In this document: positions 6,201 to 24,667 of the stretch, one piece after another | Layout of the letters: every line of letters begins with the position of its first letter | How positions within the stretch are numbered: the first letter of the stretch is position 1 | From: a virus | Reading direction: 5' to 3' (one strand) | DNA: 36,667 bases | Virus record (IMG/VR): IMGVR_UViG_3300036830_000285 | Coordinates: 1-36,667 of that record | Program-made: the position numbers and the translations under genes | The notes under the pieces: generated by a model | Told to the model about the DNA's origin: nothing | Seen by the model: the letters and a program-made list of their open reading frames with translations, nothing else | Database searches by the model: none

Positions 6201-6781
6201 AGATGAGCTTGTCTGGAACTGGTACGGCTCCTCTGCTTGGCACAGGTTCAATAGCCATGCACAAGATGGGCCTGGATGGATTCGGAACTGTCGGTTCGAT
6301 CATTGCAGGTTTCGGTTCTGTTCGAATGAACAAGATGGGCTTGTCTGGAACCGGAACAGCTCCTCTGCTTGGTTCTGGCTCAGTGCGCATGCACAAGATG
6401 GGTCTGTCTGGATCTGGTGTCGCGGAACTCACGGCTACAGGTTCTGTTCGTATGCACAAGATGGGCTTGTCTGGAACTGGACATGAGAAGCTCACAGCCA
6501 CAGGCTCAGTGCGTATGCACAAAATGAGCTTGTCTGGATCTGGCTTTGTTCCTTCTGTTTCTGGATCAGGTTCAGTAGCTCTTCACAAGATGAGTTTGTC
6601 TGGTTCAGGAATTGAGATCATCAGAAGTACTGGCTCAGTTCGCATGCACAAGATGGGCTTGTCTGGATCTGGACATCTGATAGTTTCGGGCACTGGTTCA
6701 GTGTCAATGCACAAGATGCGTCTTCACGGTCAGCAAGGCCGTATGAAGGCCTCGAATCTGTTCATATTTACGCCCGTCTGA
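3299..6781 (+). CDS. large tail fibre or adhesin with 23 MHKM repeats and lectin-like domains
   Basis: This 1160-residue protein starts after GGGAGG. Residues 1-230 form a phage beta-structural domain (GWSAGWTEF, AYKWSTGSETGTI). Residues about 233-440 are a concanavalin-like beta sandwich. Residues about 448-552 hold five repeats with the core GSVRMHKMGLSG. Residues about 555-772 are a second beta sandwich related to the first. Residues about 773-1147 hold 18 more repeats, then a short tail ending FIFTPV. The repeat period is mostly 21 residues (63 bp). The repeats would suit a long beta-rich shaft with a His ladder. No chaperone or peptidase domain is visible. It precedes terminase, away from the main fibre cluster. 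Likely role: host binding or head/tail surface fibre; the exact site on the virion is unknown. Confidence 0.75.
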   Translation: MTFPTIPTGGRVLTNVQANTTATRTFPNLSGLTKSSGDLLIAICIVYQSSASGGAVFSGWSAGWTEFGDLGGTTSNMSIGMAYKWSTGSETGTIAVTQAATITGAATMMLLSIPGAHATTPPEHTAIANDTSSAANPAALVPSWGVDDTLWIAVGGSGRTSTSGTFTGLTAAPTNYSNLASTGSSGGGIVGDTWGAAAFRQNNTASEDVATFTCDTINARNSAVVIAVRPVQKSEFKNSCTGTNAATVTTANTGGPDQFAEANVSGAGSSLAFSNSHAFNGKATSIHAVGGASVAYCAWHVAPTDGYSDAYIYMASPPTALARIMAWDDNSTFTMCCGAYVDTSGHIVVLDSTFTGLATSTTVITGADVRLEFDFVGNATTGSFSLKIYTNPESGTPAETLSGTNVNTHGAADQFWIGASDFGSTGSDLYFGDVAVSAIGAIPPVLVTGTGSVRMHKMGLSGTGHEKLVATGSVRMHKMGLSGTGHEKLVATGSVRMHKMGLAGSGTVSSMVTGTGSVRMHKMGLSGSGIAYIGSGSVRMHKMGIAITGVLHAPDLWNNFSGLTNGTTLTTGNTGGVSGRKFDSITIPSGATLAADNTHLGLDAMALKVATTTTTGVVTATWSLAASLSYTRTKMYFRADCLKTAAATPTLRPFAFRNAAGVHVFSPLVTGNTVQFSTGSGFVGSGNIFTGSIANNQYFRIEGYIDTVAGTAHMELYLNQTDAVPSQVADVSGLSFGDVIGSISVGNNNSATSDGPFWIDVVGFSENGPLSPASVRMHKMGLSGSGYEKITGTGSVRMHKMGISATGHAPLFGSGSIAMHKMGLSGSGFEKLTATGSVRMHKMGLSGIASAPLFGSGSIAMHKMGLSGSGFEKLSGTGSVRMHKMGLSGIATAPLYGTGSVSMHKMGLSGTSEVTVPGTGSVAMHKMGLSGTGTAPLLGSGSVAMHKMGLSGTGQEIVSGTGSIAMHKMSLSGTGTAPLLGTGSIAMHKMGLDGFGTVGSIIAGFGSVRMNKMGLSGTGTAPLLGSGSVRMHKMGLSGSGVAELTATGSVRMHKMGLSGTGHEKLTATGSVRMHKMSLSGSGFVPSVSGSGSVALHKMSLSGSGIEIIRSTGSVRMHKMGLSGSGHLIVSGTGSVSMHKMRLHGQQGRMKASNLFIFTPV
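4643..4945 (+). repeat. first MHKM repeat array (5 units)
   Basis: There are five in-frame units of about 60-69 bases, each encoding a variant of TGSVRMHKMGLSG plus a variable 7-10 residues. Bases encoding MHKM are nearly invariant while the linker varies. The fifth unit (MHKMGIAITG) is the most divergent and runs into the second beta-sandwich domain. Confidence 0.9.
5617..6740 (+). repeat. second MHKM repeat array (18 units)
   Basis: There are eighteen in-frame units, mostly 63 bases. Two linker types dominate: one like GSGxEKLTA and one like GTAPLLG. They alternate in the middle of the array, which suggests amplification of two-unit blocks. One unit has MNKM and another LHKM instead of MHKM. 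The last unit departs (MHKMRLHG) before the C-terminal tail. Confidence 0.9.
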
Positions 6782-7433: not shown

Positions 7434-9176
7434 ATGTTGTCGAATACGGCGACGCCTAAGTATTACGGGGCGTTCCGTGACGCTGTTCTTCGTGGAGAAA
7501 TTCCGGTAAACCAGGAAATCTCGCTCGAGATGAACCGTATCGACGATCTCATTGCTGACCCGAATTTCTATTACGACGATGCTGCGATTGACGGGTTCAT
7601 CAGGTATTGCGAGAATGAGCTGACGCTTACAGACGGAAGCGATTTTCATTTGCTGGACAGTTTCAAACTGTGGGCAGAATCTCTTCTCGCATGGTTTTAC
7701 TTTGTAGAGCGAAGTGTGTATGTTCCGAATGAAGATGGTCATGGAGGCCACTACATCCGGAAGCGCATCTGCAAGAGACTCGTCAACAAGCAATACTTGA
7801 TTGTCGCACGTGGTGCGGCCAAGTCCATGTACGCGGAATGCGTTCACGCGTACTTTCTGAATGTAGACACTTCAACGACTCACCAGATCACGACTGCTCC
7901 AACTATGAAGCAGGCTGAAGAGGTGATGTCGCCTTTCAGGACCGCTATCACGCGTGCGCGTGGCCCGCTGTTCCAGTTCCTCACTGAAGGATCACTGCAG
8001 AACACGACGGGCTCCAGGGCTATGCGCGTGAAGCTTGCATCCACCAAGAAGGGTGTCGAGAATTTTCTGACAGGCTCTTTGCTTGAAGTCAGGCCTATGG
8101 CTATAGCAAAGCTGCAGGGTTTGCGACCCAAAGTCTCGACGATTGACGAATGGCTGTCAGGCGACTTGCGCGAGGATGTTATTGGCGCACTGGAACAAGG
8201 TGCATCTAAACTTCCTGATTACATAATTGTTGCAACCAGTTCTGAAGGAACAGTCAGGAATGGTTCAGGCGACACTATCAAGCTTGAACTAGCAGACATA
8301 CTTAAAGGCGATTACATCAATCCGCACGTTTCGATCTGGCATTACAAGCTAGATGACATTACAGAAGTTGCTGATCCATCAACCTGGCTCAAGGCTAACC
8401 CTAATCTGGGGAAAACAGTCACTTATGAGACCTACCAGCTAGATGTCGAGCGGGCTGAGGCTGCGCCTGCTTCAAGAAACGATATTCTGGCCAAACGTTT
8501 CGGAATCCCGATGGAAGGTTACACGTATTTCTTTACATACGAAGAAACGCTTCCTCACCGCAGGCGTGAGTTCTGGAAGATGCCTTGTGCTATGGGCGCT
8601 GACCTTTCTCAAGGTGACGACTTTACAGCCTTTACTTTTCTCTTTCCGGTAAGCAATGGCTCATTCGGAGTTAAGACCCGAAGCTATATTTCGAGTCTGA
8701 CAATGTCGAAGCTTCCAGGTGCTATGCGCCAGAAGTACGACGAATTCATTCAGGAAGGCAGCTTGCACGTTCTTGAAGGTGCAGTTCTGGACATGATGGA
8801 AGTCTATGACGATCTGGAACGTTTTATTCTGGATAACGAGTATGACGTCAGAGCTTTCGGGTTTGACCCGTACAATGCCAAAGAATTTGTTACTCGCTGG
8901 GAAGCTGAGAATGGGCCTTTCGGAATAGAGAAAGTGATTCAGGGAGCTCGGACAGAATCTGTTCCTCTTGGTGAACTGAAAGCACTGTCTGGTGAGCGAA
9001 TGCTCATATTTGACCAAGAGCTGATGGGCTTTGCCATGGGTAACGCTATTACCATGGAAGACACCAACGGTAACAGAAAGCTGTTCAAGAGACGCCAGGA
9101 ACAAAAGATCGACAACGTCGCAGCAATGATGGACGCCTATGTGGCGTACAAACTGAACAAGGAGTCATTCGAGTGA
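7434..9176 (+). CDS. terL: terminase large subunit
   Basis: This 580-residue ATPase-nuclease drives DNA into the prohead. ATG follows AAGGAGG. The Walker A variant ARGAAKS lies at residues 125-131 (K130). The Walker B is TIDEW with D238 and catalytic E239. The C-terminal RNase H-like nuclease shows GADLSQGDD (D390), FGFDPYN (D478) and KIDNVAAMMDA (D560) as likely metal ligands. The length is normal for the family. The stop overlaps the GTG of the next gene. No intein or intron is visible. Confidence 0.93.
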   Translation: MLSNTATPKYYGAFRDAVLRGEIPVNQEISLEMNRIDDLIADPNFYYDDAAIDGFIRYCENELTLTDGSDFHLLDSFKLWAESLLAWFYFVERSVYVPNEDGHGGHYIRKRICKRLVNKQYLIVARGAAKSMYAECVHAYFLNVDTSTTHQITTAPTMKQAEEVMSPFRTAITRARGPLFQFLTEGSLQNTTGSRAMRVKLASTKKGVENFLTGSLLEVRPMAIAKLQGLRPKVSTIDEWLSGDLREDVIGALEQGASKLPDYIIVATSSEGTVRNGSGDTIKLELADILKGDYINPHVSIWHYKLDDITEVADPSTWLKANPNLGKTVTYETYQLDVERAEAAPASRNDILAKRFGIPMEGYTYFFTYEETLPHRRREFWKMPCAMGADLSQGDDFTAFTFLFPVSNGSFGVKTRSYISSLTMSKLPGAMRQKYDEFIQEGSLHVLEGAVLDMMEVYDDLERFILDNEYDVRAFGFDPYNAKEFVTRWEAENGPFGIEKVIQGARTESVPLGELKALSGERMLIFDQELMGFAMGNAITMEDTNGNRKLFKRRQEQKIDNVAAMMDAYVAYKLNKESFE

Positions 9177-9460: not shown

Positions 9461-10801
9461 ATCAGTAAACTTACAGATCGTATTAAGGGTGCCTGGAATG
9501 CTTTCAGATTCCAGGACGAACATCCTGAAGTTCTGTCAACTTCATCTGATCTGGGAACGTCTTATACGCATCGTCCGGAACGCAGGCGTCTCCGGTTCGC
9601 TGGCGAGAAGACCATCGTATCTGCGATCTACACCAGAATCGCGATCGATGTAGCAGCGGTTCCTATTCGTCATGTGAGACTTGACGCGAACAGGCAGTAT
9701 CAGGAAGACATAACCAGCGGCCTGAATGATTGCCTGACTGTTGAAGCGAATGTTGATCAAGGTGCTCGTCAGTTCAGGCAGGATCTCGTTCAGACGCTCT
9801 TTGACGAAGGTGTAGCTGCAATTCTTCCCGTTGACACCACGCTGAATCCTTTGACCACAGGAGGATACGATGTCAACAGCATGCGTGTTGGCCGTGTGAT
9901 GCAGTGGTATCCAAGGCACGTTCTCGTCAGGGCGTACAACGATAGCCCGAAGAAAGGTCTTCAGGAAGACGTACTCGTTCCGAAGAGTATGGTCGCTATC
10001 GTGGAGAATCCTCTTTACACAGTGATGAACGAGCCGAACTCAACTCTTCAGCGTTTGCTCAGAAAGCTCAATCTTCTGGATGCTGTTGACGATCAGAGTG
10101 CATCAGGTCAGCTTGATCTCATCATTCAGCTTCCTTACGTCATCAAGACTGAAGCTCGAAGGGCCGAAGCAGATAAGAGACTCAAGGAGATTGAGTTTCA
10201 GCTCAAGGGCTCTCAGTATGGTATCGCCTATGTAGACGGTACCGAAAAAGTCACTCAGCTGAACAGGCCTGCTGAGAACAACTTGATGGGACAGGTTGAG
10301 TATCTTACGAAGATGCTTTATGGCCAGCTGGGTCTCACCGAAGAGGTCATGAACGGAACGGCCGATGAAACCACGATGATTGGCTATTACAACCGGTCGA
10401 TTGAGCCTGTTCTTGGTGCTATTACAGAAGCGATCATAAGAACGTTTCTTACTAAGACGGCTCGTTCACAAGGTCAGTCAGTCATCTACATCAAGAATCC
10501 GTTCACTCTTGTTCCTGTCAAGGAGCTTGCTGAGATTGCTGACAAGTTCACAAGAAACGAAGTTCTTTCTTCCAACGATATGCGCAGTGTTATCGGCTTC
10601 AGACCGTCTACTGATCCGAAGGCCGATAAGCTTCTGAACAAGAACCTGCCCATCGATCAAACGGATCCGACTATTGCTGCTAATGCAGCTAAGGAAGCCG
10701 CGAAAGCGAGGGCTGTACAAAGACCTCCACCACAACAGATGTTGCCCTTCAAGCAAGTCCCGGCAATAACGCAAGGAGTGAATAGTCAAAATGGTAGCTG
10801 A
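9461..10801 (+). CDS. portal protein, apparently starting at ATC
   Basis: The portal forms the ring at the packaging vertex. A conventional caller would start at GTG 9674 (375 residues). However, the frame stays open upstream to a TGA at 9455 and encodes about 71 residues (SKLTDRIKGAWNAFRF, IYTRIAIDVAAVPIRHV) that fit the expected portal N-terminus. No ATG, GTG or TTG lies in that stretch near a ribosome site. The codon 9-10 bases after AAAGGGGG (9444-9451) is ATC 9461, giving 446 residues. Internal portal features include MRVGRVMQWYP, GSQYGIAYVDGTEKVTQLNRP and TEEVMNGTADETTMIGYYNR. It overlaps the capsid gene by 11 bases. A sequencing error at the start codon is the main alternative. Confidence 0.85.
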   Translation: MSKLTDRIKGAWNAFRFQDEHPEVLSTSSDLGTSYTHRPERRRLRFAGEKTIVSAIYTRIAIDVAAVPIRHVRLDANRQYQEDITSGLNDCLTVEANVDQGARQFRQDLVQTLFDEGVAAILPVDTTLNPLTTGGYDVNSMRVGRVMQWYPRHVLVRAYNDSPKKGLQEDVLVPKSMVAIVENPLYTVMNEPNSTLQRLLRKLNLLDAVDDQSASGQLDLIIQLPYVIKTEARRAEADKRLKEIEFQLKGSQYGIAYVDGTEKVTQLNRPAENNLMGQVEYLTKMLYGQLGLTEEVMNGTADETTMIGYYNRSIEPVLGAITEAIIRTFLTKTARSQGQSVIYIKNPFTLVPVKELAEIADKFTRNEVLSSNDMRSVIGFRPSTDPKADKLLNKNLPIDQTDPTIAANAAKEAAKARAVQRPPPQQMLPFKQVPAITQGVNSQNGS

Positions 10802-12788
10802 CTTCTCTGGCTACGTCACCAAGAGCGGGATCAAGTGCTCCGATGGCCGGGTCATCATGGCTCACGCCTTCAAGGGCAACGACCAGCAGCAGGTCCCTCT
10901 CGTGTGGCAGCACCAGCACGATGCCCCGGACAACGTTCTGGGTCACGTTCTCCTGCACAACCGAGCCGACGGCGTCTGGGGTGAGGGTTTCTTCAACGAC
11001 ACCCCTGCCGGCCAGCAGGCCAAGGCGCTCGTGATCCACAAGGACATCAACTCGCTTTCGATCTACGCGAACCAGCTGGTTCAGCAGGCCAAGAACGTTG
11101 TTCACGGTGTGATTCGTGAAGTCAGCCTGGTTCTGTCGGGTGCGAATCCCGGCGCGTTCATCGAGAACATCAACATTGCTCATGGTGACGACATCACCAT
11201 CTCTGAAGACGAAGCCGTGATTTACAGCGGTGAGCCTCTGGAGCACGCCAACATGAGCACGACTGTTTCTGCTCCTCGGCAGATTCAGATGCGTCCCAAG
11301 GGAAACATGCCCTCAGCTCCTGCTGCGGCTGCATCTGGAGGAAGCGGACCTTCTGTCGAAGACGTGTTCAACAGTCTGAGCGACGAGCAGAAGAATGTCG
11401 TCTACGCTCTCGTCGGTGCTTCCGTCCAGCAGGGCGGTATGGGAGACGGCAACAACAACGATCCCACCAACAAGAAGGGCGAAGGCCAAGTGACCCGAAA
11501 CGTCTTCGACAAGAACAACGACGGTGACCCGAAGGCGGGCGGAGCCACTCTGTCGCATTCCGATGCGCAGGAGATCTTCGCCGCGGCCCGCAAGGGTGGT
11601 TCTCTCAAGGAGGCCGTTGAGGAGTACGCGCTTGCTCACGGCATCGACGACATCAGCACCCTGTTCCCGTACGACCAGGCGGTCACCGACACTCCGGAGT
11701 TCATCTCCCGGAGGACTCAGTGGGTCGCCGGCGTTCTGAGCGGTACCCGCAAGACCCCGTTCTCGCGGATTCGCAGCTGGACCGCGGACATCACTCAGGA
11801 CGAAGCCCGGGCCAAGGGTTACATCAAGGGCGACCTGAAGAAGGAAGAGTTCTTCGCGGTGGCCCGGAGGATCACGACCCCTCAGACCATCTACAAGAAG
11901 CAGAAGCTGGACCGCGACGACATCATCGACATCACTGATTTCGATGTCGTGACGTGGCTGCAGACCGAGATGCGTGTCATGCTGGACGAAGAGCTCGCAC
12001 GAGCGATTCTGGTCGGCGATGGCCGTGAGGTGGACGACTCGGACAAGATCAACGCAGCCAACGTCAGGCCGATCCTGGGCGACGACGACATGTACGTGAC
12101 CAACCTCAACATTGATCTGAGCGACGCGGCCAGTTCCGCTGACGAGATCGTGGACCAGGTCGTCACGGCCATGCGATACTACCGCGGCTCGGGCAACCCG
12201 GTTCTGTACACGACTCAGGTGTACCTGTCGAAGATGCTGCTGGCGAAGGACACTCTGGGAAGGCGCCTGTATGGCACCACTCAGGAGCTGTCTGCCGCGC
12301 TGGGTGTCAGCGGGATCGTCACCTGTGAAGCGCTGGAGCAGACTGCAGGTCTCATCGGGATCATCGTCAACCTGTCGGACTACACCATTGGCGCCGACAA
12401 GGGCGGCCAGGTTTCGATGTTCGACTTCTTCGACATCGACTACAACCAGTTCAAGTACCTGATGGAGACTCGGGTCAGCGGCGCCATGACCAAGTACAAG
12501 GGCGCCCTGACGATCATGGAGTTCACCGGCGCCGGCGGCATGCTGCCGAACCCGACCGCTCCGACCTTCGTCAAGACCACTGGTGTCGTCACCATTCCGA
12601 CCACGACTCACGTTACCTACGTGATCGTGGATCCGGACGACGGTACCGAGGGAAGTGCTCTGAGCCCAGGCGCACAGAGCGCCATCTCCGCGGGCGAGTC
12701 CGTCCACATCAGGGCCAAGGCCGCATCGACCTACGCCTTCATGGACGACGCGAACGAGGACTGGATCTTCACCCGCAACGCTAGCTGA
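10791..12788 (+). CDS. capsid maturation protease fused to major capsid protein
   Basis: This 665-residue protein has ATG after AAGGAG. Residues 1-135 are an HK97-type prohead protease: likely His43 in WQHQHDAP, Ser90 in SLSIYA and Glu110 in IREVSLVLSGANPGA. Residues about 150-235 are a Gly/Ala/Asn-rich linker that may serve as scaffold (delta-domain). From about residue 237 (NVFDKN) the HK97-fold capsid follows, with FPYDQAVTDTPEFISRR, MLDEELARAILVGDG and a T-loop-like end. Residues about 590-665 add an Ig-like beta module also found at the end of the tail tube protein. Codon third positions are strongly GC-rich compared with flanking genes, as expected for the most abundant virion protein. 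The protease should release itself during maturation. Confidence 0.9.
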   Translation: MVADFSGYVTKSGIKCSDGRVIMAHAFKGNDQQQVPLVWQHQHDAPDNVLGHVLLHNRADGVWGEGFFNDTPAGQQAKALVIHKDINSLSIYANQLVQQAKNVVHGVIREVSLVLSGANPGAFIENINIAHGDDITISEDEAVIYSGEPLEHANMSTTVSAPRQIQMRPKGNMPSAPAAAASGGSGPSVEDVFNSLSDEQKNVVYALVGASVQQGGMGDGNNNDPTNKKGEGQVTRNVFDKNNDGDPKAGGATLSHSDAQEIFAAARKGGSLKEAVEEYALAHGIDDISTLFPYDQAVTDTPEFISRRTQWVAGVLSGTRKTPFSRIRSWTADITQDEARAKGYIKGDLKKEEFFAVARRITTPQTIYKKQKLDRDDIIDITDFDVVTWLQTEMRVMLDEELARAILVGDGREVDDSDKINAANVRPILGDDDMYVTNLNIDLSDAASSADEIVDQVVTAMRYYRGSGNPVLYTTQVYLSKMLLAKDTLGRRLYGTTQELSAALGVSGIVTCEALEQTAGLIGIIVNLSDYTIGADKGGQVSMFDFFDIDYNQFKYLMETRVSGAMTKYKGALTIMEFTGAGGMLPNPTAPTFVKTTGVVTIPTTTHVTYVIVDPDDGTEGSALSPGAQSAISAGESVHIRAKAASTYAFMDDANEDWIFTRNAS

Positions 12789-12796
12789 GGTAGCCA

Positions 12797-13129
12797 ATGC
12801 GGTTCTACGGAGCCGTAGGCTACGCAACTAGTACCGAGGTAACTCCAGGCGTCTGGCAGGAAGTCATTACCGAGAAGATGTATTACGGTGACGTCGTCCG
12901 TAACGCCAGGCGCCTGGAGCCGCCCGTGCAAGTTCCGCCAGAGCTCAACGTTAACCTCGCGCTTGAGAACTCGTTCAGTCTCTTGGCGGATGCTGACGCC
13001 TACGCCAATTTTGTGAACATCAGGTACCTCGAGTGGGAGGGACATCGCTGGACAGTCACTAACGTCGAGGTACGCAGACCGAGACTCATACTGACGATTG
13101 GAGATCTGTGGAATGGGAATGCGGCTTGA
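12797..13129 (+). CDS. head closure or head-tail connector protein
   Basis: This 110-residue protein has ATG soon after GAGG, nine bases past the capsid stop. It shows a beta-rich chain with YATSTEVTPGVWQEVITEKMYYGDVV, an Asn/Leu-rich middle and FVNIRYLEWEGHRWTVTNVEVRRPRLILTIG at the end. That pattern matches the stopper family that seals the portal after packaging. The position between capsid and tail terminator agrees. It overlaps the next gene by 17 bases. Confidence 0.7.
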   Translation: MRFYGAVGYATSTEVTPGVWQEVITEKMYYGDVVRNARRLEPPVQVPPELNVNLALENSFSLLADADAYANFVNIRYLEWEGHRWTVTNVEVRRPRLILTIGDLWNGNAA

Positions 13130-13418
13130 TTTCCAGACTCTTCTCGAAGATCTTCAGGATGGCGTGAGCGTATATTTTCAGCCACCGCCAAACGTCACTA
13201 TGACATATCCGGCAATCGTCTACAACAGGGATTTCCAGAATGTCGATTACGCGGACAACTCTCCGTATTACAAGAGAATCCGCTATCAGGTAACTGTGAT
13301 CGACCGTGATCCAGACAGTGCTATACCGGACAAGGTTGCCGATTTGCCTCTGACGAAGTACGTCAGGCACTTTACAACCGAAAACCTGAACCACGATATT
13401 TACGACGTTTACTTCTAG
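13113..13418 (+). CDS. tail terminator-like protein
   Basis: The likely start is ATG 13113, nine bases after GGAG; ATG 13119 is also possible, and a TTG at 13098 lacks support. It is about 101 residues. It has a helix (DFQTLLEDLQDG) and then beta strands with YPAIVYNRDFQNVDYADN, YKRIRYQVTVIDRDPDS and YVRHFTTENLNHDIYDVYF. This alpha/beta pattern resembles siphovirus tail-terminator or tail-completion proteins that cap the tail tube at the head end. Its place just before the tail tube gene supports this. Confidence 0.7.
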   Translation: MGMRLDFQTLLEDLQDGVSVYFQPPPNVTMTYPAIVYNRDFQNVDYADNSPYYKRIRYQVTVIDRDPDSAIPDKVADLPLTKYVRHFTTENLNHDIYDVYF

Positions 13419-13429
13419 GAGGATAGACC

Positions 13430-14302
13430 ATGACAGCACTGGTCTGGGATGACACCGGCAACAAGAGGTACGAGACTGGGGTCGATCACGGGGTCCTTTA
13501 CCCGCTGAATCCCTCTACGGGCCTCTACGACACCGGTTTCGCCTGGAACGGGCTGACTGCCGTCAATGAGAAGCCTGACGGAGCGGCTCCCAACCCGACG
13601 TACGCGGACAACATCAAGTACTCCAACCTTCTGTCGCTGGAGACCTTCGGCGGCACCATCACTGCCTACACCTACCCGGACGAGTTCGGCGCCTGTGACG
13701 GCACCGACACTCCTTCGGCTGGTGTTCAGGTTGGTCAGCAGCCGCGGCAGACGTTCGGTTTGTCCTACCGCACCAAGGTGGGCAACGACCTGTCGGCCGA
13801 GGCGGGGTTCAAACTTCATCTCGTGTACGGAGCTCTCGCGGCTCCGTCGGAGAAGGACTACGCCACGATCAATGACTCGCCGGCCTCGGTCGAGTTCTCG
13901 TGGGACTTCACCACTACACCGGTATCGGCTACCGATCTGCAGCCGACTTCGCTGATCGTGATTGACTCAACGCTGGTCGATCCCGATTCGCTGACCACTC
14001 TCACCGATCTGCTCTACGGCGCGTCCGGAAACCCCGAACTGCCTTCGCCGGACGCCGTCATCGCCCTGTTCGCCGGCGATGTGAACTTCATCACGCTGAC
14101 TGCGCCGACCTTCGACGGTGCGCACACCATCACCATTCCGACCGAAGCCGGCGTGAAGTACTACGTCGACGGAGTTCTGCACGCTGGTGGTTCTCAGCTG
14201 CTGACTTCCGGTCAGAAGAAGGTTGTCACTGCAAGGGCAGACGTCAACTACGTGTTCAACACTCCGTACGTCACGGAGTGGATGTTCACTTACGTCAGCT
14301 AG
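13430..14302 (+). CDS. major tail tube protein with C-terminal Ig-like domain
   Basis: This 290-residue protein has ATG after AGGAGG. Residues 1-215 form the tail tube domain. Marker stretches are GVDHGVLYP, WNGLTAVNE, FGLSYRT, KLHLVYGALAAPS, SWDFTTTPV and LLYG. These recur in the two paralogues at 14856 and 16619. Residues about 224-290 are an Ig-like add-on similar to the end of the capsid protein (APTF, TIPT, W-F-T near the end). GC-rich third positions suggest high expression, supporting its role as the main tube subunit. Confidence 0.85.
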   Translation: MTALVWDDTGNKRYETGVDHGVLYPLNPSTGLYDTGFAWNGLTAVNEKPDGAAPNPTYADNIKYSNLLSLETFGGTITAYTYPDEFGACDGTDTPSAGVQVGQQPRQTFGLSYRTKVGNDLSAEAGFKLHLVYGALAAPSEKDYATINDSPASVEFSWDFTTTPVSATDLQPTSLIVIDSTLVDPDSLTTLTDLLYGASGNPELPSPDAVIALFAGDVNFITLTAPTFDGAHTITIPTEAGVKYYVDGVLHAGGSQLLTSGQKKVVTARADVNYVFNTPYVTEWMFTYVS

Positions 14303-14319
14303 AAGGGAGGGATTAGCGA

Positions 14320-14859
14320 ATGCTCCGGCTTAAGATTACCACTGAAGAAGGATTCAACGAGGCGAGCAACGAATTCGTCTCGTCTGACTACACAGTTCTT
14401 GAGCTGGAGCATTCGCTGGTCTCAGTGTCAAAATGGGAGTCCAAATGGGAAATTCCATTCCTGAACACAGACAGTAAGTCTGACGCACAGACACTTGACT
14501 ATGTCAGGATGATGTTTTCCGGAGACGAATTCCCAGAACACCTGATTCCAGTTCTCACAACCGAACATTACCAGCAAATCAACGACTACATCAACGCTAA
14601 GATGACGGCGACATGGTTCAGCGAGCAGCAGAATGCCCAGAGCCGTGAGATCATTACGGCAGAGCTCATCTATTACTGGATGATCGCACTAGGCATACCA
14701 TTCGAATGCCAGAGCTGGCATCTTAACCGTCTTCTGACGCTGATCAAGGTCTGTAACATCAAGAATGCACCTAAGAAGAAGCTCACTTCCGCTGATGCAG
14801 CCAGACGTAACCGTGAAATCAATCAGCAACGCCGAGACCAGATGGGGAGTAAGGGATGA
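14320..14859 (+). CDS. tail assembly chaperone-like protein
   Basis: This 179-residue protein has ATG after AAGGGAGGG. Marker stretches are LELEHSLVSVSKWESKWEIPFL, the helical middle with INDYINAKMTATWF, and ELIYYWMIALGIPFECQSWHLNRLLTLIKVCN. This is a widespread phage family placed between tail tube and tape measure, where chaperones sit. The usual -1 frameshift product is not apparent: the next gene starts in an ATGA overlap and encodes a different family. The Lys/Arg/Gln-rich C-terminus ends the chain. The chaperone role is inferred from family and place. Confidence 0.65.
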   Translation: MLRLKITTEEGFNEASNEFVSSDYTVLELEHSLVSVSKWESKWEIPFLNTDSKSDAQTLDYVRMMFSGDEFPEHLIPVLTTEHYQQINDYINAKMTATWFSEQQNAQSREIITAELIYYWMIALGIPFECQSWHLNRLLTLIKVCNIKNAPKKKLTSADAARRNREINQQRRDQMGSKG

Positions 14860-16610
14860 CTAGAGTTACCTGGGACTCCCTTGGGGAGCGTCTCTATCAC
14901 ACAGGCGTAGACCGCGGCATGCTCTACATTGGCAGCAATGCTGTCCCTTGGAGCGGGCTTGCGAGCGTTACAGAAGCACCAAGCGGAGGAGAACCGCAGC
15001 CGTACTACATTGACGGAGATAAGGTTCTCAACATTCCTTCTGGAGAGGATTTCGGAGCAACGATTGAGGCCTATTCAGCGCCTCTCGAATTCGCTCCATG
15101 TGCCGGCAGGCTTTACCTATCAGAAGGTTTGTATGCGGCAGATCAGCAGAAGCAGACTTTCGGCTTCTCATACCGGACTCTCATCGGTAATGACGTGCAA
15201 GGCGTATCTCTGGGCTACAAGATTCATATTGTCTACAATGCTCTTGCACAGATCTCTGATTTCCTGCACAGCACGATGACCGATGGTCCTTCCGTGCAAA
15301 CTCGTTCGTGGGATGTGACCACGGTTCCGGTCGTATCGGCTGGATTCAGGCCAGTGGCGCATTTTGTCGTCGATACAAGGATTAATACGGCAGATCCAGT
15401 AAGCCAGCTCGAGGATATTCTGTATGGAAGTGACGATGACGATCCTCGTCTTCCTACTCTGGCTGAACTTGCAGATCTGTTCACGTACGAGGAAGTTACC
15501 TGGTGGGATCTGACGGATCTGGATGATTTTCCAGAAGGTGCTGTGGCAGGCGATGCCGGAGTCGACTTTGACTCGGATAATCTGTACACGGAAGACAGAA
15601 CGTTCCAGGCTGCTTTCTGGTGGGACCTTACTGGACTCTCAGATTTCCCAGAAGAAGCACTTATAGGCGACTGGGGAATCGATACAGATACAGGCGACGT
15701 CTTCACCAAACTCGATTACGCCATGGTTACCTGGTGGGATCTGACTGGACTCTCAGATTTCCCCGGGGGAGCTTCTGAAGGTGACCCAGGTATCGATTTC
15801 GAGTCTGACAATCTGTATGCGGACATAAGCGAGAACTCGGCCGCTTATCTGTGGGATTTGACTGGCCTGGACAACTTCCCGTACGAAGCTCCTGTGGGAG
15901 ACTGGGGAATTGACACCGCCGCAGGGTCTGTGTATGAGAAGGAAGCACCTTTCCTGTCTAATGATTTCGAAGAAGGCACTGACGGCGTCACTATGACGAC
16001 AGCCAACTCGGCTGGTACTGGCGAGAACGCTTTCGAAGTTATCACTAACCCGACTACGGGTCAGACAGTCATGTTCAAGAACGATACAGACGTGCACGGT
16101 ACCAAAGCTCTTGAAGTGGCTACTGGTGCTACCGCGTCCACTGCGTTCTTCAGGTGGACGACGTCTGTTGGCTCGCAATCAGAGCTGTGGTGCCGATTCC
16201 TCTTCAAGACAGGCTCAACTCCTGCGTCAAACACCAGAATCTGGCATGCTTATACAGCTTCTGGAGACTGTGCGTCGCTTATTCATACCACTGCGGGAAA
16301 GCTTATTTATGCCAACTCCGCGGGGACTCAGTACACAGGAATGATCACAGACGCAGCTCTTGCCCTGAACACGTACATCAGAATCGAGCTCTATATCAAG
16401 GGAGATGCGACTACAGGAGCTGTCGGATGGAGAATCTATCTCGATCCTGAAGGTCTCGCTCCAGATGATGTGAAGTTCGCACCGGACGTCAATACCACGG
16501 GTCTGGTAGCTAAGGTAGAAGGCGGAAACGCCGGTGCAACCAAGTCAAACAGTGGCCCCTGGAGGTTCAAGGACTTCGCGGTCGGAATTCACGGCTATCT
16601 CGGCCCTTAG
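14856..16610 (+). CDS. second tail-tube paralogue with four GDxGID repeats and a lectin-like domain
   Basis: This 584-residue protein starts in the ATGA overlap. Residues 1-205 share the tube domain with the genes at 13430 and 16619 (GVDRGMLYI, WSGLASVTE, FGFSYRT, KIHIVYNALAQ, SWDVTTVPV, ILYG). Residues about 215-363 are four repeats of about 38 residues (WWDLTGLSDFP, GDxGID, then DNLY or GDVF/GSVY). Residues about 366-584 are a concanavalin-like beta sandwich like those of the fibre at 3299. I infer a specialised tail ring or minor tube protein that carries a sugar- or wall-binding module on the tail surface. Confidence 0.75.
   Translation: MTRVTWDSLGERLYHTGVDRGMLYIGSNAVPWSGLASVTEAPSGGEPQPYYIDGDKVLNIPSGEDFGATIEAYSAPLEFAPCAGRLYLSEGLYAADQQKQTFGFSYRTLIGNDVQGVSLGYKIHIVYNALAQISDFLHSTMTDGPSVQTRSWDVTTVPVVSAGFRPVAHFVVDTRINTADPVSQLEDILYGSDDDDPRLPTLAELADLFTYEEVTWWDLTDLDDFPEGAVAGDAGVDFDSDNLYTEDRTFQAAFWWDLTGLSDFPEEALIGDWGIDTDTGDVFTKLDYAMVTWWDLTGLSDFPGGASEGDPGIDFESDNLYADISENSAAYLWDLTGLDNFPYEAPVGDWGIDTAAGSVYEKEAPFLSNDFEEGTDGVTMTTANSAGTGENAFEVITNPTTGQTVMFKNDTDVHGTKALEVATGATASTAFFRWTTSVGSQSELWCRFLFKTGSTPASNTRIWHAYTASGDCASLIHTTAGKLIYANSAGTQYTGMITDAALALNTYIRIELYIKGDATTGAVGWRIYLDPEGLAPDDVKFAPDVNTTGLVAKVEGGNAGATKSNSGPWRFKDFAVGIHGYLGP
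15501..15945 (+). repeat. four WDLTGLxDFP protein repeats
   Basis: There are four in-frame units of about 111-117 bases. Odd units end in a DSDNLY-type segment and even units in GDWGIDTDTGDVF-type. The array therefore looks like a duplicated pair. GDxGID and DTGxVY motifs recur in phage fibre shafts. Confidence 0.8.
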
Positions 16611-16618
16611 GAGAAAAC

Positions 16619-17353
16619 GTGCGTATAACCTGGGATGGCGACACCCGGCCATATTCCGAAGGAGTCAGTCAAGGTGTTCTTTACCCCGAAAATTCCCCGG
16701 GGGTCGCCTGGAACGGGTTGATTTCAGTTAACGAGAAGGGCGACGACAGTTCAAGTCCGCTTTATATTGACGGGCAGACGTACAGAAACCGGAATGTCCC
16801 TTCGAACCATTCAGGGACTATTATCGCGTATATGTATCCAGACGAGTTCGATATTTACAATGGAGTTTCCCTGAGCAGGACTTCTCAGGGAAGACCTTCT
16901 TTCGGTCTTTGTTACAGGACGAATGAAGAGCTTCATTTGGTCTATAACGCGATTGCTGCGCCGTCAAATGACAAGTATTCGTCAATTGGCGCTGAAATTA
17001 GTCCGGTTTCATTTTCATGGGACTTCACAACTGTACCCGTAAAAATCCCCGGGGGGAAACCTAGCTCACATCTCGTGATCTTGCTCGATCATATTCTGCC
17101 AGGAGTCCTTACGGACCTCGAAACTCTGCTGTATGGAGACGATACGACAGAGCCTTCTCTTCCTGATCCTCAGATACTGATCGACATGTTCGAGTCTCAC
17201 ACGACTCTCATGATCACAGACAACGGCGACGGAACGTGGACCGCTACAGGGCCAGACACGGTCATTACCATGATCGACAGCGACACGTTCGACATCAACT
17301 GGCCTTCTGCGAATTTCATTGACGCAGACACCTACACAATCTACTCACTATGA
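16619..17353 (+). CDS. third tail-tube paralogue
   Basis: This 244-residue protein starts at GTG 16619 after AGGAG. The tube-domain markers are all present: GVSQGVLYP, WNGLISVNE, MYPDEF, FGLCYRT, LHLVYNAIAAPS, SWDFTTVPV and LLYG. The C-terminal 45 residues (MITDNGDGTWTATG, ending YTIYSL) are a small beta module of the kind common in phage and bacterial surface proteins, unlike the additions on the other two paralogues. It sits right before the fibre genes and may form a distinct tail segment or a tail-tip ring. Confidence 0.72.
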   Translation: MRITWDGDTRPYSEGVSQGVLYPENSPGVAWNGLISVNEKGDDSSSPLYIDGQTYRNRNVPSNHSGTIIAYMYPDEFDIYNGVSLSRTSQGRPSFGLCYRTNEELHLVYNAIAAPSNDKYSSIGAEISPVSFSWDFTTVPVKIPGGKPSSHLVILLDHILPGVLTDLETLLYGDDTTEPSLPDPQILIDMFESHTTLMITDNGDGTWTATGPDTVITMIDSDTFDINWPSANFIDADTYTIYSL

Positions 17354-18045: not shown

Positions 18046-19467
18046 GTGACCAAGATATTGCTGGGCAACATCAGAGGTCCTGCTGGGTCTCAGGGCGAAG
18101 GTCTTACCGGTAACGCCATCCAGCATTTCGGCGGGCCCAGCTACACCTATCCGACGTGGTTTGTTGACGGCGGCGGCGTGTGGCAGGATTACCAGGAAGC
18201 AGCGCCGTACATGTCAATCGTCATCGCCAACCCTGCATCAGGGCCTGGCGATACGGCGAACACTGACTACGTCGCTCAGATTCGGCTGATGCGAGCCGCG
18301 GGAATGACTGTGCTTGGCTACATCAGCACGGCGTTCACAGCTAACAGCCAGTCTTCAGTAGAGGCTCAGATCGACGCATGGCATTCGCTGTATGACACTG
18401 AGCTGGCCGATGGAAGCTTCGTCTACATGGACGGGATATTCTTCGACGAGTGCTCTGTCGAGGTCATTCACCAGCCATATTACCAGGCGCTGTGTGATTA
18501 CACGAAATCGAAGCCTGGCAGAGGTCTTGTCCTGATCAACCCGGGCACCACTCCTGACGAGTCGTACATGAGTGCATGCGATATTCTGTGCAACTTCGAG
18601 GGAGACATCGGCCAGTACCGTGGTTTCGCGTCTACTTCGCACTTCATCGACTGGCTGACCACGTATCCGTCGAGCAGGTTTCTTCACGTCGTTTACGGAT
18701 GCTGGGGGACGAAAGAGAGAGACGAAGCACTTCGCCTGTCACGTGAACAGCGCGCCGGACTCGTCTGGATCACGGATGGAACCTTGCCGAACCCGTACGA
18801 CACGGAGCCAGGTTCTCAAGGCGGTCCTCGCAACTCGACTCCTGCCGGCTTGTCATATTTCACGGACATGATCAAGCAGCTGGCGGCGGTATATCCTGAG
18901 GATTCATGGGATCCTGTGGTCGAGGATTCCTGGGAGGGCTTTGACGGTCAGGCTTTCTCGGCACTGTGGACTGTTCCTTCCGGCAGTACTGCCGTGGTTG
19001 CCGGGCAGAAGCTTCAGCTGACTTGCACGACTAGCGGAAACGATCATCTGGATTCTGCGTCAACGTTCAACTTCACTGGTCTTCGTGCGGAAGTCGAAGC
19101 GGTAACGCTTCCTGTGGCTACTAACCCCACAACGCTGATGAAGCTTCAGAAGGATGCCAGCAACTACCTGGCAATAGGCCAGAGTAGCGGAAACCTTCTG
19201 ATGCGTTCCCGTAATGCAGGAAGCAACTCAGACACGACGTTGAGTTATGACGGTTTCAACCACAAGTGGTGGAAGATCAGTCTGGTTTCGGGAACGGCCA
19301 CGTGGTACACCAGCGCAGACGGAGAGACCTGGACTTCAAGGCGCACTGTCAGTTCGAGCTTGCCTGACATGACCGCGGTGACCTATATTCTCTCTACATC
19401 TCGCACAACTGGCTCGAATGAGACCGTCGACTTCGACAACGCCTTGTGCGTGGATGCGGCTGCGTGA
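18046..19467 (+). CDS. tail fibre with spherulin-4-like glycoside hydrolase and lectin-like domain
   Basis: This 473-residue protein starts at GTG 18046 after AGGAGG. Residues 1-15 (TKILLGNIRGPAG) are shared with the gene at 19471 and are probably a tail anchor. Residues about 30-285 match the spherulin-4 family (IVIANPASGPGD, AAGMTVLGYIST, DGIFFDE). That family includes GH135 enzymes such as the Aspergillus Sph3 galactosaminogalactan hydrolase. The expected acidic residues appear: D134 and E135 in FFDE, and E185 in CNFEGD, with spacing similar to Sph3. Residues about 294-473 form a beta sandwich like sugar-binding domains. Inference: a virion depolymerase that cuts a galactosamine-containing or similar exopolysaccharide. 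Confidence 0.8.
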   Translation: MTKILLGNIRGPAGSQGEGLTGNAIQHFGGPSYTYPTWFVDGGGVWQDYQEAAPYMSIVIANPASGPGDTANTDYVAQIRLMRAAGMTVLGYISTAFTANSQSSVEAQIDAWHSLYDTELADGSFVYMDGIFFDECSVEVIHQPYYQALCDYTKSKPGRGLVLINPGTTPDESYMSACDILCNFEGDIGQYRGFASTSHFIDWLTTYPSSRFLHVVYGCWGTKERDEALRLSREQRAGLVWITDGTLPNPYDTEPGSQGGPRNSTPAGLSYFTDMIKQLAAVYPEDSWDPVVEDSWEGFDGQAFSALWTVPSGSTAVVAGQKLQLTCTTSGNDHLDSASTFNFTGLRAEVEAVTLPVATNPTTLMKLQKDASNYLAIGQSSGNLLMRSRNAGSNSDTTLSYDGFNHKWWKISLVSGTATWYTSADGETWTSRRTVSSSLPDMTAVTYILSTSRTTGSNETVDFDNALCVDAAA

Positions 19468-20081: not shown

Positions 20082-20462
20082 ATGCTTCAGATCACGTCAA
20101 GAGGCTCTTTCGACCGGACTGACAAATTCCTTGCACGAATACAGAGAGGCGATATTTACAAAGCACTGAACATGTATGCCCAGCAAGGTGTGGCGGCTCT
20201 GGCATCTGTGACTCCGCAAGACACTGGAGCAACGGCAGCGTCGTGGAGTTATGAAATCAAAATTAGCCGTGGGAGTGCGTCTATATTCTGGACCAACTCT
20301 CACATAGATGCGGCCGGAACACCCATCGCCGTTATGCTGCAACATGGTCACGGAACGGGAACCGGCGGGTACGTGCAAGGCAGGGACTACATCAATCCAG
20401 CGATCAGGCCTATATTTGACCAGATCGCCAATGCTGTGTGGAGGGAGGTGACGTCTTCATGA
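20082..20462 (+). CDS. HK97 gp10-like tail or neck component
   Basis: This 126-residue protein has ATG after AAGGAG. It carries FDRTDKFLARI, QGVAALASVTPQDTGATAASW and LQHGHGTGTGGYVQGRDYINPAIRPIFDQI, the signature of the HK97 gp10-like (tail completion or minor structural) family. This family usually sits next to the head-tail connector genes. Here it lies after the fibres and overlaps the tape measure start by four bases (ATGA). Confidence 0.7.
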   Translation: MLQITSRGSFDRTDKFLARIQRGDIYKALNMYAQQGVAALASVTPQDTGATAASWSYEIKISRGSASIFWTNSHIDAAGTPIAVMLQHGHGTGTGGYVQGRDYINPAIRPIFDQIANAVWREVTSS

Positions 20463-23400
20463 GTGGAAGCATCGACGAGCGAATTGTCGAGATGACCTTT
20501 AAGGGTGAGTCTTTCGTTGCCAGTGTTAAAGGCACCGTAGAAGCGCTCTTGAACCTTAAGAACGGCCTGAACAGCCTGAAGGGTTCTGAGAAGGACATCA
20601 ACAATCTGGACGAAGCCGGAAAGCGGTTCTCTCTCAAGGGAATGGCCAATGGTGTTGAGTCCATAGCAGGAAAGTTCAAGACGCTTGGGATTATTGGCGT
20701 CACCGCCCTCGCAACGATTGCCAACAAGGCTGTAAACGCAGGCATATCCATCCTTAAGTCCTTGACGATTGACCCAATCAAGGCGGGTCTGGACGTTTAT
20801 GAGACCAAGATCAATGCAATCAAGACGATCCTTGCGAACACACAGGCACAGGGCACGAATCTCAAGCAAGTTACAGCCGCTCTTAACCAGCTGAACACTT
20901 ACGCCAACAAGACCGTTTACAACTTCGGTCAGATGGCGAAGAACATCGGCACATTCACCGCGGCTGGTGTCGACCTGAAGACTTCGGTAGCCTCAATCAA
21001 GGGCATCGCGAATCTTGCAGCGCTTTCGGGCTCGTCTGCGGAGCAAGCCTCTACCGCGATGTATCAGCTTTCGCAGGCCATCGCTTCAGGTACGGTCAAG
21101 CTTCAGGACTGGAACTCAGTCGTGAATGCTGGCCTGGGCGGTAAGGTATTCCAGAATGCACTTATTCAGACTGCCAAGGTACACGGCGTCGCCATTGATC
21201 AGATGATCAAGAAGGACAAGGGTTTCCGTAATACCTTGCAAGAGGGCTGGCTGACGTCCAAGATTCTGACTCAGACACTTGAGACTTTCACCGGCGATCT
21301 GAGTGCGTCTCAGCTGAGAGGTCTCGGATATTCTGAGAAGCAGACTCAGGCGATTCTGAAGCAGGCCAAAGCAGCTCAGTCTTCAGCAACTGATATCCGG
21401 ACGCTGACTCAGCTGCATCAGGCCCTTGCTGAGGAAGTTGCAACTGCCTGGTCTCGTGTCTGGGAAGCTGTAATCGGAAACGTTACCGACGCTACAGCTA
21501 CCTTGTCCAAGGTTCACAACGTTCTTGAGAACGCCTTCACAGGGCCACTTAACAACTTCTCTAAGCTTCTCACTGAATGGGACAAGCTCGGTGGCAGAGA
21601 TGAACTTATCCAGGCCATTGGCGATGCATTCAGGAACCTTGGCCAGATCCTTGGTACTATCGGCTCGGCCTTCAGGGAAGTCTTCCCGCCAGTCACTGCC
21701 TTGACATTGGTCAAAATGACAGTAGCTCTCGAGAAGTTTGTCGAGAAGCTCAGACTCAGCAGTCAGGGAGTCAAGGATCTCAAGGCCACCTTTGTAGGCA
21801 TATTCTCGGTCGTAAAGATCGTCTTCGACATTATCGGTGGCCTAGTCAAGACGCTGTTCACTTTGTTCGGCGCGGTTGCAAGCGGTGGGGGAAGTTTCCT
21901 GAGTTTGACCGCCAGGATAGGGAATTTCCTGTCCAAAGTGCGTCAAACAATCGAATCTGGCGGTGCTCTGACCAAGTTCTTCCAAATCCTTGGTAAAGTG
22001 CTGTCTTTCCCGATCAAGGTGATCGTTGCGATCATCGGAGCACTTGGCGGACTGAGTGGTGCCTTCAACAAGGTAATCGCAGCTGTTTCTCCGTTCGTGC
22101 AGAAGATCGGGCAGGAGTTCTCTAAGCTCGCCGGTGCGGTTACTCAGGGCATTGAGAGCGGGAACTTCAGCGCTGTAACAGGCGTCATCAATCAGCTTCT
22201 TCTTGGCGGAATCCTGGTAGCAATCAGGAAGTTCATCAAGAACCTTGGGTCGGCCGGCGGTGGCGGAGGTCTCTTCAGCACCATCAAGGAGTCTTTCGAG
22301 TCGCTGACACACACCTTGGTGACCATGCAGACTAGTCTTAAGGCTGGTATTCTGCAGAAGATTGCCATTGCTGTAGCTCTTCTGGCGGCTTCTTTGCTGG
22401 TTCTGTCGCTTATCGACGTGAAGAACCTGACCAAGGCCCTGACTGCTATAACAGCACTGTTCATTCAGCTTCTGGCTGCAATGGCTGTGGTGATCAGAGT
22501 TGGAGGCTCTGCTGGCATCCTCAAAATGGAAGCTATCGCAATAGCCCTGAATCTTCTGGCCACAGCGATAGTTATCCTTGCAGGAGCAGTAGCTATTCTT
22601 GCTCAGTTCAGCTGGGAACAGCTGGCCAAGGGTCTGTCGGCTATTGCTGTGCTTCTGCTTGAGCTCGTCGTGGCGACAGCACTGATGTCCAAGGATTCTG
22701 TGGGCCTTATTGCCACAGCATATTCCATGGAAGTCATGGCTGTAGCACTCAACGTGCTGTCTCTGGCAGTTGGCCGGCTCGGAAAGCTGAGTCTCGCGAA
22801 CCTTGCCAAGGGAATAGGCTCAATTGCTCTTCTTCTGGCAATTCTTGCTGGATTCAACAAGATCAGCGGTGTGCAGCTAATTGGCACTGCTGTTTCCATG
22901 GCAATTCTTGGTGTGGCACTTAACATCATAGCCAGAGCTGTGGAGAAGCTTGGAGCTTTGTCTCCGGCTACCTTGGCCAAGGGTCTTGTGTCCATCGCAG
23001 CGGCGTTGCTCATCATTGCCGCGGCCATGAACTTGATGCCTCCGAGCATGATCGCTACGTCTCTGGGTCTGCTTCTTGTCGCGTCGGCACTGGTCATAAT
23101 CGCTGATGCCCTTGACAAGATGGGTGGTCAGTCTGTTGGGTCGATAGCCAAGTCGCTTATCGTCCTGGCGGCTTCACTGGCTATTATTGCCGCGGCCATG
23201 TTCCTGATGTCTGGAGCACTGCCCGGAGCTGCCGCCTTGCTGGTGGTAGCCGCTTCTCTGGCTATCCTGACCCCGGTTCTGGTAGCACTGGGAGCTCTTT
23301 CCTGGTCAGCAATCGCCAAGGGACTGACTGCACTTGCGGCTGTTTTCCTGATAATTGCCGCGGCGGGAATTCTGCTCACACCTCTTATCCCGACACTGCT

Positions 23401-24667
23401 CGGGCTGGGACTGGCCATCACGCTCCTTGGCGTGGGTGTTCTAGCAGCAGGCGCAGGAGTCTTGCTCTTTGCGACAGGTCTCACAGCACTTGCCGTTGCA
23501 GTTACGGCCTCAGGTGCAGCTATATTGTCGTTCGTCACAAGTATTCTGAGTCTTATTCCAGAGACTCTGAAGAAGATCGGCGAAGGAATAGTCGCGTTCG
23601 CTAACGCCATTGGCAGCGGTGCTGTAGCGATCACACGCGCTTTCACAGCGATTCTGACAGCTCTGCTCAGGGCAATCATCAAGGTTGCTCCACTGGCGGC
23701 TCAGGCTTTCGCTTCTGTGATGAACGGTGTTCTCAGTTCGATCAACAAGTACTCGCCGAGAATCATCACGACGTTCCTCAACCTGCTTCTGCACATGATT
23801 CAGGCTGCGGTCAGATATACGCCGAAGTTCGTCAACGAGGGTGCGGCACTTATAATCGCGTTCCTCAATGGCGTTGCAAGGAAGATTTCGGCCGTTGCCA
23901 GAGCTGCAACTAACGTAGTAATTGCGTTCATCAATGCTGTGGGCAATAGTGCTCAGCGTATTGTGAACGCCGGCGTCAACATGGTAATCAACCTTGTCAA
24001 CGGTATTGCCAACAGAATCAGGGCAAGCAGCGGAAGAATTCATGCCGCAGCAGCCAACCTGGGTAGTGCGATCATCCAGGGCATGATTGCTGGCATATCT
24101 GGAGGAATCGGCGGAGTTATCGGAGCCGCGGTGCACGCTGCCTCGAGCGCTTTGAGTGCAGCTAAGCATTTCCTTGGAATCAGTTCACCGTCCAAGGCGT
24201 TCATGCAAGTCGGTATTCAGTCTATGGCCGGCATAGTTGTGGGCGTTATCAGCTCCATCGGCAAGGTTACTGACTCGGTCAAGAAGACTGGTCACACTAT
24301 GTTGCAGACTCTTGGCAATACTCTGGCTCAGGCTGGAGATGTCATTGGAGACAACATCGACCTTCAGCCGAAGATCACGCCAGTGATTGACCTGACAGAA
24401 GCTAAGAAGGGCTTCGGAAGCCTGAACGATCTGTCCAAGAAGCAGCTTATTTCTGCGAAAGCATCAACAAGTGCAGCAACGTCTATATCTGCGGCTCACC
24501 AGACAGCAGCTCAGGTTGCCGGTCTTGTGCCGTCAGACAAGACGAACCTCACGTTCAACCAGTACAACACTTCTCCGGCGACATTGTCCGCCGCGACTAT
24601 CTACCGTCAGACCAAGAACCAGCTATCAATTGCGAAGGGAGCTTTGTCCAGTGCTAACGCAGCTTGA
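20459..24667 (+). CDS. tape measure protein
   Basis: This 1402-residue protein uses ATG 20459, eight bases after GGAGGGAGGTG; the in-frame GTG at 20438 is upstream of that site. It is the largest complete gene here. Residues 1-450 are helical (KAVNAGISILKSLTIDPI, NQLNTYANKTVYNFGQM). Residues about 640-1020 are hydrophobic, with about six repeats of a LAKGLxxIAxxLLIIAAAM type every 45-50 residues. The C-terminal part is helical with GISSPSKAFMQVGIQSMAGI, a common tape-measure end. At about 0.15 nm per residue it predicts a tail near 210 nm. No lytic domain is obvious. Confidence 0.92.
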   Translation: MSGSIDERIVEMTFKGESFVASVKGTVEALLNLKNGLNSLKGSEKDINNLDEAGKRFSLKGMANGVESIAGKFKTLGIIGVTALATIANKAVNAGISILKSLTIDPIKAGLDVYETKINAIKTILANTQAQGTNLKQVTAALNQLNTYANKTVYNFGQMAKNIGTFTAAGVDLKTSVASIKGIANLAALSGSSAEQASTAMYQLSQAIASGTVKLQDWNSVVNAGLGGKVFQNALIQTAKVHGVAIDQMIKKDKGFRNTLQEGWLTSKILTQTLETFTGDLSASQLRGLGYSEKQTQAILKQAKAAQSSATDIRTLTQLHQALAEEVATAWSRVWEAVIGNVTDATATLSKVHNVLENAFTGPLNNFSKLLTEWDKLGGRDELIQAIGDAFRNLGQILGTIGSAFREVFPPVTALTLVKMTVALEKFVEKLRLSSQGVKDLKATFVGIFSVVKIVFDIIGGLVKTLFTLFGAVASGGGSFLSLTARIGNFLSKVRQTIESGGALTKFFQILGKVLSFPIKVIVAIIGALGGLSGAFNKVIAAVSPFVQKIGQEFSKLAGAVTQGIESGNFSAVTGVINQLLLGGILVAIRKFIKNLGSAGGGGGLFSTIKESFESLTHTLVTMQTSLKAGILQKIAIAVALLAASLLVLSLIDVKNLTKALTAITALFIQLLAAMAVVIRVGGSAGILKMEAIAIALNLLATAIVILAGAVAILAQFSWEQLAKGLSAIAVLLLELVVATALMSKDSVGLIATAYSMEVMAVALNVLSLAVGRLGKLSLANLAKGIGSIALLLAILAGFNKISGVQLIGTAVSMAILGVALNIIARAVEKLGALSPATLAKGLVSIAAALLIIAAAMNLMPPSMIATSLGLLLVASALVIIADALDKMGGQSVGSIAKSLIVLAASLAIIAAAMFLMSGALPGAAALLVVAASLAILTPVLVALGALSWSAIAKGLTALAAVFLIIAAAGILLTPLIPTLLGLGLAITLLGVGVLAAGAGVLLFATGLTALAVAVTASGAAILSFVTSILSLIPETLKKIGEGIVAFANAIGSGAVAITRAFTAILTALLRAIIKVAPLAAQAFASVMNGVLSSINKYSPRIITTFLNLLLHMIQAAVRYTPKFVNEGAALIIAFLNGVARKISAVARAATNVVIAFINAVGNSAQRIVNAGVNMVINLVNGIANRIRASSGRIHAAAANLGSAIIQGMIAGISGGIGGVIGAAVHAASSALSAAKHFLGISSPSKAFMQVGIQSMAGIVVGVISSIGKVTDSVKKTGHTMLQTLGNTLAQAGDVIGDNIDLQPKITPVIDLTEAKKGFGSLNDLSKKQLISAKASTSAATSISAAHQTAAQVAGLVPSDKTNLTFNQYNTSPATLSAATIYRQTKNQLSIAKGALSSANAA

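Follow-up and report, generated by a model that had tools for sequence, protein, structure and literature searches.

The three tail-tube paralogues encoded in this siphophage head-tail region are, on balance, best read as unequal partners: MTP1 would form the bulk of the tube, and MTP2 and MTP3 would be low-copy subunits of the tube fold, with MTP2 bearing a probable glycan-binding arm. The window, the whole 36,667-base stretch of DNA analysed here, comes from IMG/VR virus record IMGVR_UViG_3300036830_000285. Its terminase (7434-9176) and portal (9674-10801) genes are followed, on the plus strand, by a major capsid/protease fusion (MCP; 10791-12788; PHROG 3270, E 1.4e-229), the tail terminator (13098-13418; PHROG 78, E 2.2e-12), MTP1, the presumed main tail-tube protein (13430-14302, 290 aa; PHROG 2645, E 7.8e-96), a gene matching PHROG 4338 (14320-14859; E 3.7e-71), MTP2 (14856-16610, 584 aa; PHROG 2645, E 8.1e-80) and MTP3 (16619-17353, 244 aa, GTG start; PHROG 2645, E 7.2e-61). 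Further along the same strand lie the tape measure gene (20438-24667, 1409 aa; PHROG 4372, E 0; Pfam TMP_3) and the gene for the distal tail protein Dit (24471-25475; PHROG 33, E 7.2e-23; Pfam Sipho_tail), a baseplate adaptor that has its own gene and is distinct from all three tube paralogues.

The initial annotation had proposed three tandem tail-tube paralogues, and all three reading frames are present, each giving a significant whole-protein profile match to PHROG 2645 'major tail protein'. In pairwise BLASTP, MTP1 is 40% identical to MTP2 (E 7e-47) and 41% identical to MTP3 (E 2e-40), and MTP2 is 35% identical to MTP3 (E 5e-27), values that exclude chance resemblance. The region common to the three spans residues 1 to ~214, beyond which the C-termini differ. 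The motifs listed as shared were found, except that MTP2 reads WSGLASVTE and thus has VTE where VNE had been given. The three genes do stand in a row, but they are not strictly adjacent, since the PHROG 4338 gene separates the first from the second. A PDB sequence search with MTP1, MTP2 and a profile of last copies gave no convincing tail-tube match by sequence. We modelled MTP2 and MTP3 with AlphaFold, using alignments of relatives, and compared the models with solved structures by Foldseek and VIA-align. Ten-residue blocks of the MTP2 tube domain (aa 1-216; 14856-15503) had pLDDT values of about 75-98 across residues 1-210, and MTP3 reached 82.9 overall. The initial annotation had named a fold outside the tube family as the outcome that would count against it; that outcome did not occur, since the fold matches of both models are nearly all tail-tube or Hcp-type proteins (JBD30, SPR, YSD1, Chi, SPP1 and lambda). 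The MTP2 model aligned with JBD30 (Z 11.6, rmsd 5.4, 157 residues) and YSD1 (Z 10.0, rmsd 5.2, 155 residues), and the MTP3 model with JBD30 (Z 10.4, rmsd 3.8, 144 residues) and SPP1 6yeg (Z 7.8, rmsd 4.2, 129 residues). MTP2 and MTP3 are therefore modelled with a tail-tube fold, and the same fold is predicted for MTP1 from its identity to MTP2. MTP2 and MTP3 would have arisen by old duplications within one family, retaining the fold.

The three-copy arrangement is already known from several sequenced phages that infect soil actinobacteria and is not peculiar to the window phage. A tblastn search matched 480 places in 243 phage records, so two copies are typical. Clusters AM, AU, AW, BI, CC, DJ and EL have a capsid-protease fusion and two MTP genes as common traits (PMC11080557); paired MTP genes have been discussed for cluster DJ (PMC12859696) and also noted in actinophages elsewhere (PMC10652937). 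The window likewise encodes the fusion and at least two MTP genes flanking the PHROG 4338 gene, which is what marks this actinophage group. The Microbacterium phages Camille, DizzyRudy and Count, of cluster EL, carry MTP1, an intervening gene, MTP2 and MTP3 in this order, all three annotated 'major tail protein'; the Arthrobacter phages Sporto and ProfFrink also have three copies, the long middle one labelled 'minor tail protein'. In these five phages, as in the window, the fusion is followed by a small gene, the terminator, MTP1, a PHROG 4338-type gene, MTP2 and MTP3, then in most by fibre genes and finally by the tape measure. Their middle copies, only some of which are extended at length, differ from that of the window in their add-ons. 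Two-copy actinophages (clusters AM, AU, AW, BI, CC and DJ), such as Rima, KeaneyLin, Qui, Petito and ReqiPoco6, share with the window an MTP1 with a ~71 aa add-on, the PHROG 4338 gene and a last copy, which has a ~50-58 aa module; they have no middle copy. In Lactococcus phage 1706, whose head and tail genes are ordered alike, the only tube gene is orf13, which encodes a homologous MTP. A scan of bacterial genomes for prophage relatives returned one distant locus in a Bacilli MAG, from which no host genus could be taken. The window locus is thus a further case of a known arrangement, in which the signal of a division of labour is useful and testable: hundreds of actinophage records list two or three 'major tail protein' genes with roles unstated.

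Across a comparison set of 158 loci, the C-terminal extension follows gene position. First copies mostly extend by ~71 aa and last copies mostly by ~51 aa; about half of the middle copies extend by 0-3 aa, and 9/30 by 198-896 aa. The loci are interrelated, and these and the other counts across loci are not independent events. The initial annotation had asked for a phylogeny of the tube domains as a check. An unrooted tree of 213 domains, with moderate support at the deeper nodes, places first and single copies, including that of Lactococcus 1706, in one clade (91 rows, SH-aLRT 91) that holds no last copies and one stray middle copy. Window MTP1 falls in this clade, and window MTP2 and MTP3 each group with six further copies of their own position, middle (SH-aLRT 97) and third (SH-aLRT 98) respectively. 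By sequence, then, the paralogues sort into three classes of orthologues, each with a characteristic C-terminus. In the seven-member clade of middle copies that includes MTP2, add-on lengths are 2, 3, 305, 374, 374, 618 and 896 aa; because lengths vary so widely within one clade, we conclude that middle-copy add-ons are exchanged quickly, over short evolutionary distances. Between three-copy genomes, median tube-domain identity falls from 0.625 for copy 1 to 0.493 for copy 2 and 0.404 for copy 3, with copy 1 the more conserved of the first two in 374/375 pairs.

Codon use separates the copies as well. Across loci, among the genes compared, GC3 is raised only in MCP (0.77) and the first copy (0.75): the middle and last copies stand at 0.48 and 0.50, the terminase at 0.55, the portal at 0.54 and the tape measure at 0.56. 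The first copy exceeds the last in 95/96 loci and the middle in 28/28, and MCP exceeds the last in 94/94; in the window, MCP has a GC3 of 0.797. After correction for amino-acid composition, with the terminase, portal and tape measure of each record as reference, the excess across loci is +0.213 for MCP, +0.183 for the first copy, -0.061 for the middle and -0.065 for the last, and in the window 0.248 for MCP, 0.245 for MTP1, -0.036 for MTP2 and -0.039 for MTP3. In most genomes the codons of MTP2 and MTP3 are thus no better adapted than those of terminase, portal and tape measure. High-copy structural genes of phages use host-preferred codons (PMC2266997), and adaptation confined to MTP1 and MCP argues for an abundant MTP1 as the body of the tail and for scarce, low-copy MTP2 and MTP3, codon use being an indirect proxy. 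Together, add-on classes, conservation gradient and codon contrast yield a testable assignment of one body protein and otherwise minor ones.

A published account reads the same bias differently. In cluster DJ, the copies of FortCran have 63% and 49% GC, and the first was inferred to be horizontally transferred (PMC12859696); a rival reading for the window would likewise have the GC-rich first copy acquired by transfer, and the extra copies either dispensable duplicates or horizontally acquired genes without a role in the virion. Our codon result offers an alternative, and we consider transfer or dispensability highly improbable here. MCP has a like GC excess in nearly every genome, and the genes between and beside the two lack it. 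At fourfold sites C is up, A is down and G is flat, so codon preference fits better than a GC-rich donor. Distances among MTP1 domains track those of portal and MCP (rho 0.55 and 0.47) better than do those of the last copy (0.30 and 0.37). A recent transfer of MTP1 is disfavoured on all three counts, and dispensable duplicates are hard to reconcile with the retention of second copies in most actinophage relatives.

The initial annotation had suggested a tail of mixed rings or distinct segments. The part of this that stands is that the tail may be assembled from tube subunits of different kinds, since the tube fold is modelled for MTP2 and MTP3 and follows from homology for MTP1. That the three paralogues contribute similar amounts, whether in mixed hexamers or in long segments one after another, would be a stronger claim, and one that we find improbable. 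Heteromeric rings of tube paralogues do exist, the T6SS Hcp2-Hcp3 heterohexamer 9vne being among the fold matches of MTP3, and across loci the later copies do not have weak Shine-Dalgarno sequences. Against this, MCP-like codon adaptation is restricted to MTP1, and MTP2 and MTP3, with the codon use of low-copy proteins, are far less conserved and evolve much faster. Shine-Dalgarno strength does not back a low copy number independently and was dropped as an argument, since across loci it departs from the order expected on our reading: predicted pairing has a median of -12.5 for last copies, stronger than the -8.9 of first copies, although in the window it is -10.2 for MTP1, -8.4 for MTP2 and -7.3 for MTP3. 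In the unequal division that we prefer, MTP2 and MTP3 would be made in far smaller amounts and would be incorporated into the tail that MTP1 builds, either as minor subunits or in dedicated rings, one or a few in number. A tape measure spans ~1.5 Å per residue and a tube ring ~40 Å; by this estimate, the 1409 aa tape measure would correspond to roughly 50 hexameric rings, or about 300 copies of MTP1. A literature search found no virion mass spectrometry of any relative with two or three MTP genes.

Each paralogue carries its own addition to the tube domain. MTP1 consists of the tube domain (aa 1-~214) and a C-terminal module of ~72 aa (14075-14302), which had been described as Ig-like. That description was not confirmed, as the module has no Pfam match above cut-off; it is homologous to the C-terminal ~70-75 aa of MCP (12546-12788; hhalign probability 99.5, E 4.8e-23), with reciprocal phmmer matches to 1e-10. 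One small module is thus predicted from sequence homology to decorate the capsid as well as the tail, here and in many relatives.

MTP2 has the most elaborate addition. Its four repeats, reported in the initial annotation, are real: each is 37-39 aa long (WDLTGLxDFPxxAxxGDxGIDxxxxxxY; 15504-15962), and they probably serve as a stalk or spacer. Beyond them lies a C-terminal beta-rich module of ~212 aa (15972-16610), which is homologous to a module of a tail protein at another locus (L141, E 7e-37), to a middle copy (L076, E 5e-17) and to the fibre encoded at 3299-6781 of the window (E 2.6e-11). The lectin sandwich proposed for this region is plausible and was not confirmed, given the lack of a Pfam match and an AlphaFold model that is beta-rich with mostly low pLDDT. 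The attempt to name a particular lectin failed: a profile search of the add-on yielded nothing beyond a partial match to a PLL lectin (E 4.9e-5, 73 positions). We regard the module as a putative, and probable, glycan-binding domain. MTP2 would accordingly be a tube-anchored arm: its tube domain would slot into the tail, the repeats would hold the module away from it, and the module probably binds a glycan on the host surface. The middle copy would also be a natural slot for swapping surface-binding modules, with a bearing on host adsorption; that of locus L009, for example, has an 896 aa extension with two Laminin_G_3 stretches and MHKMxLSG-type repeats like those of the window fibre.

Extensions on a minority of tube subunits have precedents. 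TpeX of the lactococcal 936 phages is a C-terminal extension of this kind for which host-cell binding was shown (PMC6669499), and SPP1 gp17.1* is a minority subunit with an FN3 domain extension, at 3:1 (PMC8718954). MTP2 may be akin to TpeX in function, by analogy. It represents another type, since TpeX and gp17.1* arise by programmed frameshift of one MTP gene, whereas MTP2 is a separate paralogous gene, a complete reading frame with its own start and Shine-Dalgarno sequence and no frameshift extension of a single MTP gene.

MTP3 extends ~50 aa beyond the tube domain. The small beta module attributed to it is supported by the model, which shows six short strands over residues 198-241 with pLDDT mostly ~75. 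MTP3 also differs within the tube domain, in the hairpin loop that we measured between FGLSYRT and YKLHLVY. This loop is 12-13 aa long in 78/78 first copies and 27/27 middle copies, is mostly retained at that length in the last copies of two-copy genomes, and is 2-7 aa long in 20/29 third copies, with 2 aa in window MTP3; unlike the window, the third copies of Camille, DizzyRudy, Sporto and Count retain 12-13 aa. In genomes with a middle copy, then, loss of the hairpin is often open to the third copy, which suggests a distinct contact, and this may be one between rings. MTP3 would be a specialised ring or subunit in its own right, distinguished by the short hairpin and the small beta module.

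A narrower form of our preferred explanation makes MTP2 and MTP3 end rings, one hexamer each, next to the head or the baseplate, where they would fit the tube to terminator, tape measure or Dit and have adhesins attached. Short-hairpin third copies could have lost one stacking contact; nearly all these actinophages retain a second copy, as expected of a needed part; and contractile systems have paralogous tube-fold end rings, several of our fold matches being cap, collar or baseplate entries. Yet single-copy relatives such as Lactococcus 1706 do without, Dit and terminator genes are already present, and no result singles out either end for MTP2 or MTP3. We regard this version as possible and rather unlikely. 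Returning to the broader division of labour, a tentative extension, to which we give somewhat less than even weight, is that the three separate genes have fixed roles: a high-copy ring for the body, a low-copy ring whose tube domain offers a standard socket for modules, and a third whose stacking is altered. If so, exchangeable glycan-binding or -degrading modules would give such phages several levels of host-binding decoration without frameshifting.

Several neighbouring genes deserve mention. In the relatives inspected, the PHROG 4338 gene likewise follows MTP1 and precedes the next tube gene, and judged by position it may be the best candidate for the tail assembly chaperone; in DJ phages the corresponding gene is discussed as the sole candidate, has no slippery sequence, and the assignment was left open (PMC12859696). 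The minus-strand open frame at 11313-12827 (504 aa), antisense to the capsid gene, is most likely a by-product of the strong codon bias of that gene and not a gene itself. Two DUF6353 paralogues lie at 28184-28966 and 31907-32776. The latter (0.761) and 29584-30258 (0.719) stand out from most other genes by their high GC3, a hint that strong expression may extend beyond the capsid and tube genes. Upstream of the terminase, the gene at 3299-6781 encodes a 1160 aa fibre that contains numerous MHKMGLSGSG-type repeats (DUF5907) as well as a pair of domains that are related to the C-terminal add-on of MTP2. A 473 aa protein encoded between MTP3 and the tape measure gene (18046-19467) contains a Spherulin4 domain (Pfam E 3e-34) and is a probable glycan-active tail protein.
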